12,009 bases of DNA from Verrucomicrobiota bacterium (lineage in GTDB: Bacteria > Verrucomicrobiota > Verrucomicrobiia > Verrucomicrobiales > Akkermansiaceae): NCBI GenBank assembly GCA_026397695.1, contig JAPLUJ010000203.1:1-12009 (forward strand), written 5' to 3'. A program made the position numbers and the translations under genes. Shown one piece after another: positions 4,424 to 12,009 of this stretch; within the stretch, counting starts at the first letter, position 1; every line of letters begins with the position of its first letter. Below the pieces are notes generated by a model that saw only the letters and a program-made list of their open reading frames with translations, was not told the origin of the DNA and did not search any database.

Positions 4424-6472
4424 GTGATTTCCGCGTTAACCGATTTGGCGTTGCTGCCGCTACTGCCGGCCAAGGAGGTGGCGGCGTTGGCGGCGGCGGG
4501 ATACCAAACCGCGGCGCAGGTGTTAGACCACCTGCCCAAGCGCCATGAGGACCGGCGGCGCTTCGATGCCTTTCCCAATCAGCCATCCGCCGCCGCAGTC
4601 TGCCTGCGTGGCACGGTGATCGATACTGCCAAGCGCCATTTCGGGCGCGGCCACGGGTTTTTCGAGGCGCTGGTCATGGACGGTGCGGGCGGCGTTTTCG
4701 GCTGCGGGAAAATCACCTGCCGCTGGTACCATATGGCGTTCATCCATAAACTCGTCGCCGCCGGCCAGGAAGTGGTCGTTTACGGCAAGGTCAAGGATTC
4801 TAACGGACGCTTGATCATCGATCATCCGGAGTTCGAGATTCTCCGCGAGGACGACCCCGGAGCCGAGTCCATTCATCTCGAACGCATCGTCCCCATCTAT
4901 CGGAATCTGCCGGGTCTCGCCCAACGGCGCTTGCGGGAAATCATCCATCTGCTGCTCGTGCAAGCCGACCCCGTGACGCTGGCGCGAGCCATCGAGGTGG
5001 ACCCGGCATCGCCGCGAGCCACCGCGCTGTGGCACGCGCATTTCCCGGCTTCGATGGATCAAGCGCAGGCCGCCCGCCGCCGCTTCGCGCTCGAAGAGTT
5101 TTTCTTCATCCAGTTGAACGTCGCGTGGCGCAGATTGCGCCATCAGGAACAATCCGGGCGTGTCCTCGGCAAACGCACCACCTTGTTAGGGACGTTTTAC
5201 CGCAGTCTGCCGTTTGATCTGACCGACGCGCAGAAGCGCTCGATCCGCGAGATCATCGCCGACATGAGGGTGCCGCGTCCGATGAACCGCCTGTTGCAGG
5301 GTGACGTGGGCTCAGGCAAAACCTTCGTCGCCATGGCGGCCATGTTGCTCGCGATCGATTCCGGTTGCCAGGCGGCCTTGATGGCCCCCACCCAGATTCT
5401 GGCGGAACAACATTATCTAACATTCCGCCGCTGGCTCGATCCGCTGGGCGTGCGCATCGCCTTGCGCACCGCCAACCGGGACGAAACCAACCCTGCCGCA
5501 TGGCGCGGCAAGGACGCGCAGATGATCATCGGCACCCACGCCTTGCTCTATGAGAACGCGCAGTTCGCGGATCTCGGACTGGTGGTCATCGACGAACAGC
5601 ACAAGTTCGGCGTCGCCCAACGCGCTTCGTTGATCCAACGCGGCGTGGTGCCCGATGTGCTGGTCATGACCGCCACGCCGATCCCCCGCACCTTGACCAT
5701 GACCATCTACGGCGACCTCGATGTCTCGCTGCTCGATGAGAAACCTCCCGGCCGCAGGAATATCATCAGCCGTGTGAGAGTGGGTGCCAAGCAGGCGGAT
5801 GTCACCGCGTTTGTGAAATCCCAACTCTCTAACGGACGCCAAGCCTATCTCGTCTATCCACTCGTCGAGGAAAGCGCATCCCTCAAGGTGGAATCCGCCA
5901 CCGCCGCCTGCGAAAAATGGCGCAAGCGCCTGCCCGCCCACGAGGTCGGACTGATCCATGGCAAACTCCGGCCCGACGAGAAGGAAGCGGTCATGCGCCG
6001 CTTCCGCGAAGGCGCGATCCGCGCCTTGGTGGCCACCACCGTGATCGAAGTGGGCATGGACGTGGCCAATGCCACCGTCATGATCCTGCATCATGCCGAA
6101 CGCTTCGGCCTGGCCCAACTCCACCAACTCCGCGGCCGCATCGGCAGGGGTGCCCATCAGGGATACTGCATCCTTCTAACGGATGGGAAAAACCCGGAAG
6201 CCCTCGAAAAACTCATGCTGCTCGAACACTGTGCCGATGGCTTCGAAATCGCCGAAGCCGACCTCCGCCTGCGCGGACCGGGCGATGTGTTAGGCACCCT
6301 GCAAAGCGGCCTGTCCGAACTGCGCTTCACCGATTTCCTCGCGGACACCCCGCTCCTGCGCCAGGCCCGCGAACTCGCCGACCATGTGCTCGCCGTGGAT
6401 CCCTGGCTGAATGACTGCCACCGCGCCCTGCGCCCGGCAATTCAGCAACTGCCGGTCCTGATAGATACATAA
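4424..6472 (+). CDS. recG: ATP-dependent DNA helicase RecG
   Basis: RecG, 682 aa, a superfamily 2 helicase that reverses stalled replication forks and branch-migrates Holliday junctions. The N-terminal part (about residues 1-230) holds the wedge/OB domain, with LRGTVIDTAK and GQEVVVYGKVKDSNGRLIID. In the wedge strand the usual aromatic pair appears as WY in ITCRWYHMAF. Helicase motifs are in order: Walker A GDVGSGKT at 293-300, APTQILAEQH, motif II DEQH at 390-393, MTATPIPRTL (motif III), VYPLVEES, VATTVIEVGMDV (motif V), and QLHQLRGRIGRG at 565-576 (motif VI). The C-terminal RecG-specific domain has DLRLRGPGDVLGTLQSG. The start is a GTG at 4424, giving a normal N-terminus; no Shine-Dalgarno is visible. 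It follows yggS by 15 bp. Length and motifs indicate an intact enzyme. Confidence 0.97.
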   Translation: MISALTDLALLPLLPAKEVAALAAAGYQTAAQVLDHLPKRHEDRRRFDAFPNQPSAAAVCLRGTVIDTAKRHFGRGHGFFEALVMDGAGGVFGCGKITCRWYHMAFIHKLVAAGQEVVVYGKVKDSNGRLIIDHPEFEILREDDPGAESIHLERIVPIYRNLPGLAQRRLREIIHLLLVQADPVTLARAIEVDPASPRATALWHAHFPASMDQAQAARRRFALEEFFFIQLNVAWRRLRHQEQSGRVLGKRTTLLGTFYRSLPFDLTDAQKRSIREIIADMRVPRPMNRLLQGDVGSGKTFVAMAAMLLAIDSGCQAALMAPTQILAEQHYLTFRRWLDPLGVRIALRTANRDETNPAAWRGKDAQMIIGTHALLYENAQFADLGLVVIDEQHKFGVAQRASLIQRGVVPDVLVMTATPIPRTLTMTIYGDLDVSLLDEKPPGRRNIISRVRVGAKQADVTAFVKSQLSNGRQAYLVYPLVEESASLKVESATAACEKWRKRLPAHEVGLIHGKLRPDEKEAVMRRFREGAIRALVATTVIEVGMDVANATVMILHHAERFGLAQLHQLRGRIGRGAHQGYCILLTDGKNPEALEKLMLLEHCADGFEIAEADLRLRGPGDVLGTLQSGLSELRFTDFLADTPLLRQARELADHVLAVDPWLNDCHRALRPAIQQLPVLIDT

Positions 6473-6655
6473 GGTTCTTTTACGAGTCTTTATCCGCATA
6501 TTTTAGCATACATTACGCCTTATATGCTGAATGCTTTACGCAAATTAATATCCGGATATCCAAGCTGCCAGTCACGCCTTTTCACGCACACGCATTCTCA
6601 TCCACCGCAACACAACCGATTCCAACCACCCCAACCCCGCAACACACACATCCCC
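6473..6655 (+). promoter_or_regulatory. AT-rich promoter-like gap and CA-rich leader upstream of the cytochrome locus
   Basis: Non-coding stretch between recG and the multiheme lipoprotein gene. Positions 6473-6560 are clearly AT-rich against GC-rich surroundings and carry two symmetric elements. The first is AGCATA (6505-6510) with its inverted copy TATGCT (6523-6528), 12 nt apart. The second is the perfect 12-bp palindrome ATATCCGGATAT (6548-6559). Either could be an operator. I could not fix convincing -35/-10 boxes. From about 6560 to the ATG the sequence becomes CA-rich and nearly free of G (three G in 6601-6655), with no Shine-Dalgarno. The first cytochrome gene and those co-transcribed with it are probably controlled from here. 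Confidence 0.5.
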
Positions 6656-7534
6656 ATGAAGACCTTCTGGAAACTTCCTCATGTCTCGACCCTCAGCCGA
6701 TGGGTTCGTGAAAAACAAAACCCTCTCTTATGGAGCGCGGGTGCCGGTGCCTCGGTGGCTCTGGTCCTGATTTCCTGCGGCACCACGGGTCGCACGATGA
6801 TGGCCCCGCCCAGCATCCCGGGCGCCACCTTTGTCGGCACCACGGAATGCGCCACTTGCCATGAAAAACTTGTCCGCGACTTCCGCACGGCTGATCATGC
6901 GAAGCTGCAAGCCAAGGGCAAGAACGCCATCGATATGGGCTGCGAATCCTGCCACGGCCCGGGCAGCAAGCACGTCGCAGCCGGCGGCGGCGCGGGCACC
7001 ATTGTCAATCCCAGGAAATCCCCACAAACCTGCTTCCAGTGCCACCTCGATAAAAAGGCGCAATTCATGCTGCCCTACAGCCACCCGGTGCTGGCCGGCA
7101 AGATGACCTGCGGCGATTGCCATAACCCGCACAAGGGCTCGGCCCTCAAGGGGGGCGGAACTCTTCTGCACGGCAAGAACGAAACCTGTTACGAGTGCCA
7201 CAAGGCCCAGGCCGGACCTTTCATCTTCTCTCATGACGCCGTTAAGGAAGGATGTTCGTCCTGCCACAACCCGCACGGCTCCGTGAACCAGAAAATGCTC
7301 ACCGAGCGCAATGCCACGCTCTGCCTGAAGTGCCACTTCGACGGACATACCAAAACAACGTTTAACAACGCCATGGGTCCCTCCGGCGGCCACGGTCCTT
7401 CCAAAAGCTCTCCTACCGCCACCCCCCCGAATACCATCACTCCAAATGGTCGCTTCCAACAAGGCACCTGTTGGAGCGCCGGATGTCACGAAGCCGTCCA
7501 CGGATCTAACACCAACGTCGAACTGCGCTTCTAA
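6656..7534 (+). CDS. MtrA/DmsE-like multiheme c-type cytochrome, predicted lipoprotein
   Basis: Predicted periplasmic electron-wire subunit of a porin-cytochrome conduit, 292 aa. The ATG at 6656 gives a signal peptide ending in a lipobox, LISC, with lipidation at Cys41 and Gly at +2. An in-frame ATG at 6524 would add 44 residues encoded by promoter-like DNA and is rejected. Seven CxxCH motifs start at residues 65, 96, 126, 152, 178, 200 and 223. An eighth, CWSAGCH (272-278), has four intervening residues (CX4CH). Ten other histidines in the mature part (such as 81, 106, 143, 193, 207, 231, 282) could be distal ligands. CHNPH repeats and the terminal CH-EAVHGSN are typical of the MtrA/DmsE family. 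Classical MtrA has ten hemes in about 330 aa, so this is a shorter, probably octaheme relative. The barrel gene follows 32 bp later. Electron donor and acceptor are unknown. Confidence 0.85.
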   Translation: MKTFWKLPHVSTLSRWVREKQNPLLWSAGAGASVALVLISCGTTGRTMMAPPSIPGATFVGTTECATCHEKLVRDFRTADHAKLQAKGKNAIDMGCESCHGPGSKHVAAGGGAGTIVNPRKSPQTCFQCHLDKKAQFMLPYSHPVLAGKMTCGDCHNPHKGSALKGGGTLLHGKNETCYECHKAQAGPFIFSHDAVKEGCSSCHNPHGSVNQKMLTERNATLCLKCHFDGHTKTTFNNAMGPSGGHGPSKSSPTATPPNTITPNGRFQQGTCWSAGCHEAVHGSNTNVELRF

Positions 7535-7566
7535 TCACCACCGCAAACTTCAAATCATACACCGAT

Positions 7567-9873
7567 ATGAAACCGATTCAATTTACAAAGTTCCTTGCTC
7601 AGTGCAGTTCCCTGCATTCGTTCCGTGTCGCGCTTGCCGCTCCGGCACTGCTGCTCACCTTCGCCACCGCCCAGGCTGGCTCTCCCGCGGCTCCCACGGC
7701 TCCCGCCGAGGAGGTGCCCTTGTCCAACTGGATCGGCTTCACCATCGGCGGCGCGTTCGTCAATGGCGATGATGCCGCCATGAGGCAACGCACCCATACC
7801 AATGGCGACTTTTACGGGGGCATCGATTCGTTGCAATTTTCCAAGGCGGTCAATGACTCCACCACACTGACGCTTGACGGGCATGCCCTGCCGGGTCTTG
7901 AAGACTATGAATTCAACATAAATATCGAAAAGACCGATGTCGGCTACATCAAAGCCGGATACAAACAATTCCGTACTTGGTATGATGCTTCCGGGGGATA
8001 TCTCGAAGGAGCCAATATGATCGGAGTCGGCAATCAATTTAACGACGAGCAGTCCATTGATCGCGGCGAGATTTACTTCGAGGCGGGCCTGCGCATGGAA
8101 AAACTCCCGGAGATAACGTTCTCATACAGGCATTTGTGGCGGAATGGTCAAAAGGATTCCACCTGCTGGGGCGATACGCAAAGCAACGCGGGTTGGGGTG
8201 GTGCTCCGGGCACTCAGAATTTTGCCTTCAAGCTTATGCCTGCGCTATGGGATATTGACGAGTCAACCGATATTTTCGAACTCGATGTTGAGCACACCTT
8301 GGGTAACACCGATATTGGCATGGGCTTGGTGTTTGAAAGCTATAACCTTGACAATTCCCGCTACACTCCGCGCTGGGGCAATCAACCGAAAGTCAATGGC
8401 GGCTCCACTACCAAAGCCGATACCATGATAGGCGTCAACGAAATCAATCTTACAGAGAAGACCGATGCTGACATCTTTGCCAGTCATATCCACAGCGTGA
8501 CCCGCTTTAATGACAAGGCATGGCTATCTTTCGCGGCCTCATACAGTAACATGGATACTGATATCGGTGGAGGGTCCCGGACGTGGGGCAAGTATTGGGC
8601 AAATCCCGTGCCTCCTGCAGTGACCGGAGACTCGAACAAACCGACGATACGCGATTACGCCTACGACCAGATGAGCGGTGGCAGTAGCGTCAACCAGTTC
8701 ATCGCCAATCTCAACTTCATGTGGGTTCCGGTGCAGGATCTGACCGTCACGCCCTCGTTGCGTTATGAAAACGAGAGTATCGACACCTTCAGTAAATTCA
8801 GGGCCTTCAATACCAACCAAACGTGGCAGGGTCTTGAGTCGCTCGCTGCCTATACGGACAAGGATTCCACCACGGGTGCCCTTGATCTCCGCTACACCGG
8901 CTTCTCCGATATCGTGCTCTTCGCCAAAGGCCAGTGGGGCCGGGAGAACGAGGACGTCCTCCGCAAGGACCGCTACATGACGGATGGCACGGGCGTCCCC
9001 GATGCCGATCTAGACGGTGAATTCCTCTCCTCGGACATCCAGATTGACGAGCAGGAATATGTGCTCGGTGCCAACTGGTATGCACGTAGCAACCTGAGTT
9101 TTGCTCTACAAGGCATACACAGTGAGCGCGATCAATCGCTCGACCATTACGAGGGCAATGAGCAGTATGCGAGTGCGCAGGCCCCGCTTCCCGGAGGAGC
9201 CAACAACTTCCGCCCGATCATGACCGAGCATAATGTCGAAATTGACGATCTCAGTGTCCGCATGACCTGGCGTCCGATGAGCAATCTCTCGTTGGTGACC
9301 CGCTACGATTATCGTCACACCGAGATTGAAAACAGGGGCATCAACTGGTCCAAGAATGCCGCACCTACTACCACCAGCCCTAACATTGACCCCGCGGTTA
9401 TCTATCCAACCGTCGAGAGCGGCGACATCGCCTCCCACATCGTGAGTCAGAGCGTCACTTGGAGCCCGACGGCGCGGTTCTACCTCCAGGGCAACGCGAG
9501 TTGGATCCGTTCGGAAACCAAGACGCCGGAGACTTACACCGGCAATTCGGACAGCGACTACTTTATGGGCAGCCTGACGGCGGGTTACGCGATTGATGAC
9601 CGCACGGACATCACGGCAAGTTATACCTACTACGGGGCCAGCAATTATGCCAACAGCACAAATTACTATGGTGCCAACACCATGGGCTACGGTCTGAACA
9701 CCGAGGAACACGCTGTCAGCCTGACCCTCACCCGGTTGCTCACCCCCAGCATGATTTGGAACCTGCGCTACGCCTACATCACCAGCAACACCGATCCGAT
9801 GCCGGATCAATCCGGCGGCTACAACGACTTTGACGCCCACATGATCTCAACAGGCTTGCAAATCCGCTTCTAA
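7567..9873 (+). CDS. MtrB/PioB-like outer-membrane beta-barrel protein
   Basis: Predicted large outer-membrane porin of 768 aa that would sheathe the preceding multiheme cytochrome. A signal peptide occupies about residues 1-38 (core VALAAPALLLTFATAQA). The mature part is made of alternating amphipathic strands rich in Tyr, Trp, Asn and Asp, with paired turns such as ADIFASHIHSVTRF, TVTPSLRYENESID and TLTRLLTPSMIWNLRYAYI. It ends in STGLQIRF; a C-terminal Phe is the usual signal for BAM insertion. Length, composition and position next to an MtrA/DmsE-like gene fit the MtrB/PioB decaheme-associated family (about 700 aa, 26 strands in Shewanella MtrB). The N-terminal CXXC of Shewanella MtrB is absent; I see only one cysteine in the mature protein (in DSTCWGD). 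No Shine-Dalgarno; the leader is CA-rich. Identification rests on architecture and context more than on strongly conserved motifs. Confidence 0.8.
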   Translation: MKPIQFTKFLAQCSSLHSFRVALAAPALLLTFATAQAGSPAAPTAPAEEVPLSNWIGFTIGGAFVNGDDAAMRQRTHTNGDFYGGIDSLQFSKAVNDSTTLTLDGHALPGLEDYEFNINIEKTDVGYIKAGYKQFRTWYDASGGYLEGANMIGVGNQFNDEQSIDRGEIYFEAGLRMEKLPEITFSYRHLWRNGQKDSTCWGDTQSNAGWGGAPGTQNFAFKLMPALWDIDESTDIFELDVEHTLGNTDIGMGLVFESYNLDNSRYTPRWGNQPKVNGGSTTKADTMIGVNEINLTEKTDADIFASHIHSVTRFNDKAWLSFAASYSNMDTDIGGGSRTWGKYWANPVPPAVTGDSNKPTIRDYAYDQMSGGSSVNQFIANLNFMWVPVQDLTVTPSLRYENESIDTFSKFRAFNTNQTWQGLESLAAYTDKDSTTGALDLRYTGFSDIVLFAKGQWGRENEDVLRKDRYMTDGTGVPDADLDGEFLSSDIQIDEQEYVLGANWYARSNLSFALQGIHSERDQSLDHYEGNEQYASAQAPLPGGANNFRPIMTEHNVEIDDLSVRMTWRPMSNLSLVTRYDYRHTEIENRGINWSKNAAPTTTSPNIDPAVIYPTVESGDIASHIVSQSVTWSPTARFYLQGNASWIRSETKTPETYTGNSDSDYFMGSLTAGYAIDDRTDITASYTYYGASNYANSTNYYGANTMGYGLNTEEHAVSLTLTRLLTPSMIWNLRYAYITSNTDPMPDQSGGYNDFDAHMISTGLQIRF

Positions 9874-9895
9874 TCTGCCAAATTATCCCGGCAGA
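9874..9895 (+). other. Short hairpin between the barrel and monoheme cytochrome genes
   Basis: TCTGCC (9874-9879) and GGCAGA (9890-9895) are perfect inverted copies with a 10-nt loop, starting directly after the barrel gene's stop codon. There is no T-run, so it is unlikely to be a strong terminator. It could stabilise the upstream mRNA or set unequal expression of the barrel and the small cytochrome. That role is inferred. Confidence 0.3.
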
Positions 9896-9931
9896 CCCAC
9901 CCGCAAATCAAAACACACAATTATCACCACC

Positions 9932-10243
9932 ATGAAAATGAAAATGTCACTCGTTTCGATCGCCTGTTTGCTGGCCGCTCCGCTGGCCTTCGGCGATGCT
10001 GCTGAAGTTTATGCCAAGAACTGTGCCTCGTGCCACGCCAAGGATGGCACCGGCAACACAGTCATGGGCAAGAAAAGCAAGGTGAAAGACTACACCGATG
10101 CCAAAGTCCAAGCGTCGTTCACCGATGCCGAAGCCCTCAAGGCCATCCTCGAAGGCAAGGACAAGATGAAAGGCTACAAGGACAAAATCACCGCTGAAGA
10201 AGCCGCCGCCCAAGTCAAATTCATCCGCGCCTTCAAGAAATAA
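9932..10243 (+). CDS. Small periplasmic monoheme cytochrome c
   Basis: Class I-type cytochrome c of 103 aa, likely a soluble periplasmic electron shuttle. Residues 1-21 form a signal peptide (MKMKMSLVSIACLLAAP, cleavage near AFG-DAAE). A cysteine at position 12 sits inside the hydrophobic core and is too early to be a convincing lipobox. The mature protein of about 82 residues has the usual layout: an N-terminal helix (AAEVYAKNC), heme motif CASCH at 31-35, a lysine-rich middle (GKKSKVKDY), a probable axial Met79 in KDKMKGYKDK, and a C-terminal helix (AEEAAAQVKFIRAFKK). It is strongly lysine-rich, so it could dock on acidic partners. It lies 58 bp after the barrel gene and is followed by a strong terminator, which makes it probably the last gene of the mtrA-like/mtrB-like transcript. 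Partners are inferred from context. Confidence 0.9.
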   Translation: MKMKMSLVSIACLLAAPLAFGDAAEVYAKNCASCHAKDGTGNTVMGKKSKVKDYTDAKVQASFTDAEALKAILEGKDKMKGYKDKITAEEAAAQVKFIRAFKK

Positions 10244-10322
10244 TCCTGCACAATGCGAGTGGTTGTGGTTGCCAGCCAGCCGCTGCTTCCTGAGAGGGCT
10301 CGTATCGAGGAATCATAACACG

Positions 10323-10354
10323 GCGGGGCTTCGGTGACGAGGCCCCGCTTTCTT
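10323..10354 (+). terminator. Strong intrinsic terminator after the monoheme cytochrome gene
   Basis: The arms GCGGGGCTTCG (10323-10333) and CGAGGCCCCGC (10338-10348) form an 11-bp stem with a single G-U pair, closed by the GNRA tetraloop GTGA (10334-10337). TTTCTT follows at 10349-10354. It lies about 80 bp after the cytochrome stop codon and 29 bp before the next start codon, so it separates the outer-membrane genes from the inner-membrane cytochrome gene. Confidence 0.88.
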
Positions 10355-10383
10355 ACTCCCAAGACCCGGCACACACCTAAATC

Positions 10384-11889
10384 ATGAGCGAAGAAATTTC
10401 TCCCGGCACCACTTCCACCGCGCTGCCCACCCGCCTCAGCCACCTGCACAACTGGCTCAGCCTGGCTGGCCTGGTGCTTGCGGTATCCGCTTTTTTTGCC
10501 TTTGTCCTGTTGTTTTCGGTGGACATTTTCGCCGCGCACGCGAACCCCTACATGGGTATTCTCGCCTACGTCGTGGCACCCATGTTCCTGCTCACAGGCT
10601 TGGCCATGACCTTGCTGGGCTATATTCTGGAATCCCGCAGAATCCCCAAAGGCCAGCCCGAACTCGCTTCCAGCTTCGTCCTGCACGTCAATCTGTCACG
10701 CAAACGTGACCGCCGCCTGTTGGTCGGCTTCGTCGGTGGCAGCTTGGGATTCTTCTTCCTAACAGCCCTTGGCAGCTATCAAACATATCACATGACCGAA
10801 ACCAATTCCTTCTGCGGCGAGGTCTGTCATACTCCGATGGAGCCGCAGTTCAAGGCTTACCAGCACTCGGCCCATGCCAGGGTGGCTTGCGTCGCCTGCC
10901 ATGTGGGACCGGGAGCAGGTGCCTATATCCGCACCAAGGTCAGCGGCATGCGCCAACTCTATCATACAATCCTCGGCGATTTCAAGCGCCCGATCCAACT
11001 TCACAACGTGAACCAGCGACCGGCGCAGGAAACCTGCCAATCCTGCCACTGGTCGCAAAAACACACCGGCGACCTGCAGAAAACCTACAAGCACTTCCTA
11101 TCCGACGAGACCAACACGCCCTTCACCGTGCAAATGGTGCTCAAAGTGGGTGGCAGCGACCCGGTGCTGGGCCCGGTGGAAGGCATCCACTCGCACATGA
11201 ATGTTTCTAACAAAATAGAGTTCATCACCACCGATGAAGCACGGCTCAACATCCCCTGGGTGCGCGTCACCGACCCCAATGGCAAGGTGACGGAATACCG
11301 CACCGAGGATTTCAAGGATGATATTTCCCAGCATGCGATCCGTACCATGGATTGCATGGATTGCCACAACCGCCCGTCCCACAAATACCTCACCCCCAAC
11401 GCCGCCGTGGATCGATCCATGGCCTTCGGCCGCATCGATCCAGCTATCCCCTGGGCCAAAGCCAAAGTGGTCAAGGCACTGGTCCAACCGTATGCCACCC
11501 GCGAAGAAGCCAACCAAAAAATCGCCAGCCTGCTGCGCGCGGATTTCCCGGATGACAAACGCGTGGACGCCTTGATCGCCGAAACCCAGGCAATCTATAA
11601 CATCAATTTTTTCCCCGAGATGAAAGCGGACTGGCGCATTCACCCGGACCACATCGGCCACAAGGACACCAACGGTTGCTTCCGCTGCCACGATGGCAAA
11701 CACCTGGCCAGCGACGGCAAGAGTTCCATCAAGGGCAGCGATTGCAATGCCTGCCATATCATTGTGGCCCAGGGAGCCGGCAAGGAACTCGAAAAAGTCA
11801 TTCCGCAAGGCATGAACTTTTTCCACATCGATGCGGAAAACTCCGATCCCACATGCGCCGAGTGCCACACCGGCCAGACGCAGGAGTAA
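10384..11889 (+). CDS. Inner-membrane NapC/NirT (ImcH-like) heptaheme c-type cytochrome
   Basis: Predicted quinol-linked inner-membrane cytochrome of 501 aa. Three hydrophobic helices lie at about residues 24-49, 56-82 and 112-131; the rest should be periplasmic. Seven heme motifs: CGEVCH at 144-149 (three intervening residues, CX3CH), then CVACH 169, CQSCH 218, CMDCH 324, CFRCH 432, CNACH 454 and CAECH 491. The first heme region, FCGEVCHTPMEPQFKAYQ, followed by SAHARVACVACHVGPGAGA and TKVSGMRQ, follows the NapC/NirT layout. Heme count, length and multiple N-terminal helices resemble Geobacter ImcH more than tetraheme CymA/NapC, which has one helix. Long heme-free segments (about 223-323 and 329-431) may be extra domains or loops. 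It would pass quinol electrons to the periplasmic and outer-membrane cytochromes encoded upstream. The leader is CA-rich without Shine-Dalgarno. Family is firm; direction of electron flow is inferred. Confidence 0.87.
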   Translation: MSEEISPGTTSTALPTRLSHLHNWLSLAGLVLAVSAFFAFVLLFSVDIFAAHANPYMGILAYVVAPMFLLTGLAMTLLGYILESRRIPKGQPELASSFVLHVNLSRKRDRRLLVGFVGGSLGFFFLTALGSYQTYHMTETNSFCGEVCHTPMEPQFKAYQHSAHARVACVACHVGPGAGAYIRTKVSGMRQLYHTILGDFKRPIQLHNVNQRPAQETCQSCHWSQKHTGDLQKTYKHFLSDETNTPFTVQMVLKVGGSDPVLGPVEGIHSHMNVSNKIEFITTDEARLNIPWVRVTDPNGKVTEYRTEDFKDDISQHAIRTMDCMDCHNRPSHKYLTPNAAVDRSMAFGRIDPAIPWAKAKVVKALVQPYATREEANQKIASLLRADFPDDKRVDALIAETQAIYNINFFPEMKADWRIHPDHIGHKDTNGCFRCHDGKHLASDGKSSIKGSDCNACHIIVAQGAGKELEKVIPQGMNFFHIDAENSDPTCAECHTGQTQE

Positions 11890-11934
11890 GTCGATCTTGA
11901 TGAACAAAAGTGACGCTTCAGGTCGTATCGTAGT

Positions 11935-11975
11935 TGGAGTCGCCGACTCCAGACCGTGGGCGGAACGTCCCGCTC
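11935..11975. repeat. Two adjacent hairpins, candidate dispersed intergenic repeat
   Basis: TGGAGTCG (11935-11942) and CGACTCCA (11944-11951) form a perfect 8-bp inverted repeat around a single C. Seven bases further, GGGCGG (11958-11963) pairs with CCGCTC (11970-11975) with one G-U around a 6-nt loop. No T-run follows, so this is not a standard terminator. The layout, two GC-rich hairpins in a gene-free gap, resembles REP-type or other short dispersed repeats. Only one copy is in the window, so repetition is inferred. The rest of 11890-12009 holds no supported gene. Confidence 0.4.
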
Positions 11976-12009
11976 CGTGCCGCAGTCACATTATTGCGTA
12001 AATCTGGCA

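Follow-up and report, generated by a model that had tools for sequence, protein, structure and literature searches.

A putative trans-envelope electron conduit combining an octahaem MtrA-related cytochrome, an MtrB-fold barrel and an ImcH-type cytochrome in an Akkermansiaceae genome

Verrucomicrobia from a humic bog encode clusters in which a porin of 20 or more predicted transmembrane motifs accompanies an octahaem periplasmic cytochrome, a pair proposed to transfer electrons to humics (He et al., 2017; PMC5615132). The clusters were described from metagenome-assembled genomes (MAGs), with homologues in Opitutus terrae and other organisms; several include an extracellular multihaem cytochrome (MHC), and, according to the portions of the paper dealing with them, those MAGs lack homologues of the known systems of Geobacter and Shewanella (PMC5615132). 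This verrucomicrobial porin-cytochrome type is also taken up in a 2019 paper (PMC6344600). The inner-membrane cytochrome ImcH has been characterized by three transmembrane helices with an adjoining CX3CH motif, six CX2CH motifs and a length of 495-519 aa, and the same account found no mtrAB or mtoAB genes beside imcH (Zhong and Shi, 2018; PMC6295460). In Geobacter, ImcH is described as working above about -0.1 V with periplasmic PpcA as its electron acceptor (PMC12307469). According to a 2026 cave study, six of eight porin-cytochrome complexes (PCCs) of the decahaem type are accompanied by ImcH- or NapC-like genes (PMC13264449); a linkage of ImcH to a conduit is thus not unique. Here we describe a four-gene locus (positions 6656-11889) on a 12,009-nucleotide stretch of Akkermansiaceae DNA (the window), which we interpret, with a probability of roughly three in four, as a trans-envelope electron conduit leading from quinol via an ImcH-type cytochrome, a monohaem cytochrome c and an octahaem wire within an outer-membrane barrel to an external acceptor. 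The window is the entire contig C225 of a MAG of 4.53 Mb (759 contigs, 82.8% complete), and the sequence therefore cannot be read beyond base 12009, 120 bases after the last gene.

All four genes lie on the forward strand in the order MtrA-like cytochrome, barrel, monohaem cytochrome c and NapC/NirT-related cytochrome, and the coordinates of the open reading frames (ORFs) bear out the first-pass annotation, which had placed these gene types at these positions. The first gene (6656..7534) encodes an MtrA-related octahaem c-type cytochrome of 292 aa, probably a lipoprotein, with a lipobox-like LISC at its N-terminus, seven CX2CH haem sites and one unusual terminal CX4CH site (CWSAGCH, residues 272-278; 7469..7489). 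Reading this last motif as CX3CH was considered and ruled out, as it reads CX4CH. All eight haem motifs, including both cysteines and the histidine of the CX4CH site, are invariant in 38 of 38 aligned MtrA-like sequences (window included). In the same alignment His 81, 106, 143, 193, 207, 246 and 282 are invariant and H159 is conserved in at least 90%, which makes these eight residues candidate distal haem ligands.

The protein matches 6r2q_A, the solved MtrA, with an E-value of 1.1e-28. The PDB title of this entry is 'Structure of the Mtr complex'; chain A is MtrA, although its molecule name in the file is the odd 'Cystathionine beta-synthase'. Fourteen control genomes contained no MtrA-family match and were unusable as a positive control; the MtrC-MtrA-MtrB cluster of Photobacterium plasmid pDA100 (L154), which has a CymA-like gene close by, was used instead, its gene names having been assigned in this analysis from haem counts and Pfam. 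A profile of the 38 MtrA-like sequences scores 143 bits against Photobacterium MtrA, and the two proteins align colinearly from both ends with MtrA haems 3-4, one two-haem unit, missing from the window protein. A corresponding internal gap separates positions 8-93 from 146-303 in the alignment to the NF041028 profile. By alignment, the cytochrome is thus a shortened relative of the Shewanella-type MtrA wire. Its description in the first-pass annotation as an MtrA/DmsE-like multihaem lipoprotein stands with respect to the 6r2q_A homology, but the protein is octahaem and scores below both family cut-offs, with 176.7 bits against 325 for NF041028 (GSU2203) and 164.1 bits against 192.2 for TIGR03508 (DmsE), and so has neither the ten haem sites nor the score of the MtrA/DmsE decahaem family.

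The second gene (7567..9873) encodes an outer-membrane beta-barrel of 768 aa that ends in a C-terminal phenylalanine (QIRF). In its AlphaFold model the protein has the 26-strand MtrB fold: MtrB (6r2q_B) ranks first among the structural matches, aligns over the largest number of residues and lies far ahead of other solved barrels. Sequence methods gave a different picture. Pfam family MtrB_PioB (PF11854) had no match in the window or the MAG, MtrB of the Photobacterium pDA100 cluster scoring 510.6 bits as positive control. One of 24 aligned barrel relatives matched PF11854, precomputed annotations list the family for six among 120 barrel relatives listed, and the barrel of genome G166 scored only 21.1 bits where the cut-off is 23. 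Alignment of 90 barrels to one true MtrB with hhalign gave a probability of 0.4%, and searches of PDB sequences with the barrel or its alignment returned chance-level matches only. The earlier call of an MtrB/PioB-like barrel ending in Phe therefore holds for the fold and the terminus but not for the Pfam family; placement of the barrel outside MtrB/PioB by profile searches, which had been named in advance as grounds for abandoning the conduit, is what the sequence profiles give and what the fold contradicts.

The fourth gene (10384..11889) encodes an ImcH-type inner-membrane heptahaem cytochrome of 501 aa, a probable quinol oxidase. It contains three hydrophobic segments, one CX3CH and six CX2CH motifs, and the first haem site, atypical in being a CX3CH (residues 144-149; 10813..10830), follows soon after the third segment (111-129), as in ImcH. 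With helices taken from hydropathy, and judged against the published description, this is the ImcH architecture. A search for homologues found 7,205, and among the 120 listed every protein of at least 470 aa (118/118) contains one CX3CH and exactly six CX2CH motifs, while a plasmid search for an ImcH reference returned only a partial NapC match. CymA, a NapC/NirT protein with four haems and a single short N-terminal transmembrane domain, differs from the window protein in haem number, length and number of membrane segments. The initial designation as an inner-membrane heptahaem NapC-type protein is consistent with the seven haems and with a PF03264 match (E 2.9e-11), but the layout is that of ImcH. 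It is the single ImcH-type match in the MAG.

Between the barrel and the ImcH-type gene, a monohaem cytochrome c of 103 aa (9932..10243; PF13442, E 1.4e-10) was identified as previously annotated, with a signal-peptide-like N-terminus and its haem motif (CASCH) at residue 31. It is a probable periplasmic carrier and, by analogy with Geobacter, would be the natural candidate for a PpcA-like role at this locus. The cytochrome c and imcH-like genes are separated by an intrinsic-terminator-like hairpin of 12 pairs with a T-rich tail (10322..10349, forward strand), and the folding energy around it (61 bases) is -26.4 kcal/mol (z -3.59). A general terminator scan of positions 6300-12009 found four candidates against 6.2 expected from shuffles and hence no excess. 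When gaps of at least 25 bases at the c-ImcH junction were searched for hairpins of -14 kcal/mol or lower followed by a T-run, 24 of 34 gaps (window included) contained one, compared with an average of 1.4 and a maximum of three in ten rounds of shuffling; the same thresholds yielded 0/22 and 1/31 at two other junctions of the cassette. Support for the hairpin thus comes from the junction test and not from the general scan. Its stem sequence varies between lineages, and it likely raises the abundance of conduit and carrier over ImcH or splits two transcription units.

Homologous loci were collected from Verrucomicrobiota, with genes called by a home-made ORF caller, some of whose high-GC calls are spurious. 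Barrel relatives were found in 21 of 387 genomes sampled from the phylum and in 21 of 260 family genomes (own genome included in both). From 83 loci including the window, one without a called barrel or MtrA-like gene (L138) was dropped and identical loci were collapsed, leaving 63 unique loci, 60 of which have a called barrel (L071, L089 and L112 do not). As the loci are interrelated, counts do not represent independent events. The titles of the 42 named loci read Akkermansiaceae, Akkermansia muciniphila (lake MAGs), Opitutales, Limisphaerales, Chthoniobacterales, Pedosphaera, other Verrucomicrobia and, for one, just 'bacterium'; the relatives so titled support the assignment of the window to Verrucomicrobiota that the first-pass annotation had called probable. 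The MtrA-like gene lies directly upstream of the barrel in 57 of 60 loci, the exceptions being two contig ends and one stop-broken barrel. The uninterrupted order MtrA-like-barrel-c-ImcH recurs across families in 27 of the 63 unique loci (window included); c-ImcH precedes MtrA-like-barrel in L088 and in L081, the homologous locus of genome G099, and elsewhere genes intervene. Distance matrices of the four genes correlate (r 0.72-0.89; 36 loci), a level reached in none of 999 permutations. The conduit is not a chance assembly, given eight haem motifs invariant in all aligned sequences and a gene order that recurs where barrels are about 30% identical.

Downstream content was scored in the 49 loci with at least 2.5 kb of downstream sequence, window excluded. 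Cytochrome c was present in 42, ImcH in 34, ResB/CcsA in 21, an NrfD module in ten (five without ImcH) and a b-type multihaem protein in eight, so that an inner-membrane module of some kind was found in 39. ResB, CcsA, NrfD, Fe-S and b561 domains were confirmed by Pfam in the exemplars scanned. Among 16 own-genus loci with ImcH, ResB and/or CcsA were found in ten fetched stretches; the remaining six show neither, in one case (L059) because the contig ends after ImcH. Five loci (L131, L116, L132, L127 and L093) carry a tetra/pentahaem-FeS-NrfD-type module beside the same conduit without ImcH, followed by a second ResB type in L131, L116 and L132. A conserved lipoprotein-like protein of about 250-450 aa with a REIKxYPV motif is encoded between ImcH and ResB (L058 4859-5701 and equivalents); the one scanned, from L058, had no Pfam match, and a function in haem assembly can perhaps be considered. 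The 11- and 13-haem proteins that follow ImcH in Opitutaceae were considered as surface cytochromes and ruled out, since both of those scanned (L082) carry a cytochrome b561 domain and look like CbcL-type membrane proteins. Upstream of the same Opitutaceae conduit, genes at L082 1387-5794 resemble, by eye, what we take to be a NiFe hydrogenase large subunit and its cytochrome b.

Barrel and ImcH co-occur in the family. Two of 23 ImcH matches (G378 and G495) were partial, with 30-33% identity to the ImcH query, and were dropped, leaving full-length ImcH in 21 of 260 genomes. Twenty genomes have both barrel and ImcH, one (G554) has only the barrel, one (G496) has only ImcH and 238 have neither (Fisher p 1e-27, kinship ignored). 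At least 20 listed members of the same genus lack both. The locus of G496 (L183; C55 9835-12828) nevertheless shows an MtrA-like-barrel-c-ImcH cassette, in which the MtrA-like protein has 38% identity and eight CX2CH motifs and the presumed barrel (724 aa), so called from its place and size, has no BLAST similarity to the window barrel. With this presumed barrel included, each of the 21 family genomes with full-length ImcH has the conduit, and the barrel slot of L183 seems to have been exchanged or to evolve very fast.

Based on these features, the locus probably encodes a real and functional conduit. The ImcH-type protein would oxidize quinol at the inner membrane, with electrons passing along its seven haems and on to the small periplasmic monohaem cytochrome c, and this carrier would reduce the octahaem MtrA-type lipoprotein. 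The latter is envisaged as threaded in the 26-strand barrel, in a complex whose haems would be spaced closely enough to form a wire through the outer membrane, with the outermost haem, probably that of the C-terminal CX4CH site, donating electrons outside the cell, for instance to Fe(III), humic quinones or another shuttle. The electron-conduit interpretation of the first-pass annotation is thereby retained on MtrA homology, MtrB fold and an adjoining quinone-type cytochrome, but with a haem count of eight, which that annotation had not given, a barrel that lacks a PF11854 match, and the ImcH layout in place of the NapC label. A further reading, which we offer tentatively and consider doubtful, is that of a self-sufficient, modular export cassette gained and lost as a unit within the genus, with exchangeable barrel and quinol-oxidase slots, the latter filled by ImcH, by an NrfD/Fe-S/tetrahaem module or by a b-type multihaem protein, and with the CX4CH haem acting as a surface electrode without an outer-surface cytochrome.

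Several observations weigh against the proposed conduit. The AlphaFold model of the MtrA-like protein has low confidence (pLDDT 43.1, pTM 0.24), and, with two haems fewer than MtrA, the wire may be broken by a gap. Ten of the 49 loci, including a paralogous pair on contig C422 of the same MAG, have no recognized inner-membrane quinone module in the fetched stretch, and a ResB search of the incomplete MAG, run with no positive control, was empty. Genus-mates are not independent, and the co-occurrence is therefore weaker than the raw counts suggest. Furthermore, the window contains no surface terminal cytochrome, as had been annotated, and searches of the MAG with PF09699 and PF22113, profiles that miss some kinds, recognized none; both searches together matched the MtrA-like proteins, one CbcL-type protein and, on contig C122, an eight-haem protein with tetratricopeptide repeats (TPR).

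Electrons might instead flow inward, with the conduit taking electrons from Fe(II), reduced humics or a partner in the manner of PioAB/MtoAB and the ImcH-type protein reducing quinone, or electrons reaching an oxidase. The MAG may respire oxygen, as it has two COX1-type genes and also encodes a protein with five haems next to a large Fe-S protein that is presumably of the alternative-complex-III type. The missing surface cytochrome would resemble PioAB and MtoAB, which are described as having none (PMC6344600). Contrastingly, the account of ImcH homologues implicates them so far only in quinol oxidation (PMC6295460), and no RuBisCO match was found in the MAG, which is 82.8% complete. Both points favour outward flow, and, given the ImcH layout, outward respiration is more likely than oxidation of Fe(II), so that we regard uptake as unlikely; in view of the oxidase genes, electron export would be an alternative to oxygen. 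The earlier suggestion of respiration on, or oxidation of, an external compound is thus narrowed in favour of the former.

It appears less probable still that the conduit, like DmsEF, supplies a dedicated terminal reductase outside the cell, one that acts on a soluble oxidant and is encoded elsewhere. The DmsE score lies near its cut-off, and 8-10-haem proteins without a membrane domain (Pfam), found near the conduit in seven relatives (L084, L112, L114, L116, L118, L119 and L126), all outside the own-genus loci, could be the terminal enzyme. However, no molybdoenzyme was present among 20 selected neighbour genes scanned with Pfam, and the ResB and/or CcsA genes in ten of 16 own-genus ImcH loci also count against this reading. 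That no conduit exists, the barrel being a solute porin and the haem proteins doing other periplasmic redox work, is very improbable, as the clear gap between MtrB and the remaining structural matches and the MtrA homologue almost invariably found directly upstream of the barrel both argue against it. Export through a trans-envelope conduit remains the preferred reading.

Upstream of the conduit genes, the window encodes an export protein (SLBB), a PDZ-domain protein, Prc, YggS and RecG, in this order (Pfam). The prc-yggS-recG neighbourhood noted at first is present in the window but absent from the fetched stretches of relatives. Third-position GC content (GC3) is 0.68-0.74 in the four conduit genes and 0.72-0.77 in the upstream genes, and the composition therefore shows no sign of a foreign insert; a PHROGs search gave no match. 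Elsewhere in the MAG, contig C422 (L073; 2943-7310) carries a second MtrA-like (69%) and barrel (38%) pair without cytochrome c or ImcH, beside which lies a divergent ApbE flavin transferase gene (PF02424, E 2.2e-70), hinting at flavinylated partners. The secreted-looking eight-haem TPR protein (L145; C122 3-2315) is cut by the contig start. Contig C289 (L153; 2825-6728) encodes two divergent CbcL-type genes combining multihaem and cytochrome b561 regions, one of which reads as overlapping frames (4891-5502 and 5451-6728), indicating a frameshift or assembly error.

If the interpretation is correct, a group of mostly uncultured Verrucomicrobiota can respire humics or iron outside the cell, and many of the relatives come from lakes and sediments, judged by isolate names. 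The cluster would suggest the inner-membrane partner of the conduit described in 2017 and tie that conduit to the Mtr family despite barrels that are barely or not recognizable by sequence. An MtrA-type wire would then function with two haems fewer, and the module swaps would represent natural experiments on how the redox range of electron export is determined.

Compared with MtrAB, MtoAB and PioAB, the locus shares an MtrA-homologous haem wire and a 26-strand barrel whose best structural match is MtrB, but differs in having eight haem sites rather than ten, with haems 3-4 absent, a last site of the CX4CH type, a lipobox-like N-terminus, a barrel without a PF11854 match and no MtrC in the window. 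The OmaB-OmbB-OmcB system of Geobacter resembles it by description in combining an octahaem periplasmic partner with a barrel (PMC6344600), whereas the window has no OmcB-like gene. The ImcH-type protein shares with its Geobacter counterpart, as far as that is described, a length of about 500 aa, three helices, a CX3CH and six CX2CH motifs and partial similarity to NapC, but its gene sits beside an outer-membrane conduit. Among the open-access PMC papers listed, with figures and subscription papers outside the scope, none was found to link ImcH to verrucomicrobial conduits, and the portions covered did not give the relation to MtrA minus two haems, the MtrB fold, the hairpin or the module swaps for such conduits. 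The closest description is that of He et al. (2017), with which the locus shares, compared by description, an eight-haem MHC and a neighbouring porin of 20 or more transmembrane motifs in Verrucomicrobia. The portions of that text describing the clusters do not name ImcH, the CX4CH site, a terminator or ResB/CcsA, whereas the present cytochrome is homologous to MtrA and the barrel, in its model, adopts the MtrB fold. The verrucomicrobial porin-octahaem pair as such was thus already published in 2017, and some of the anatomy described here appears to be new.

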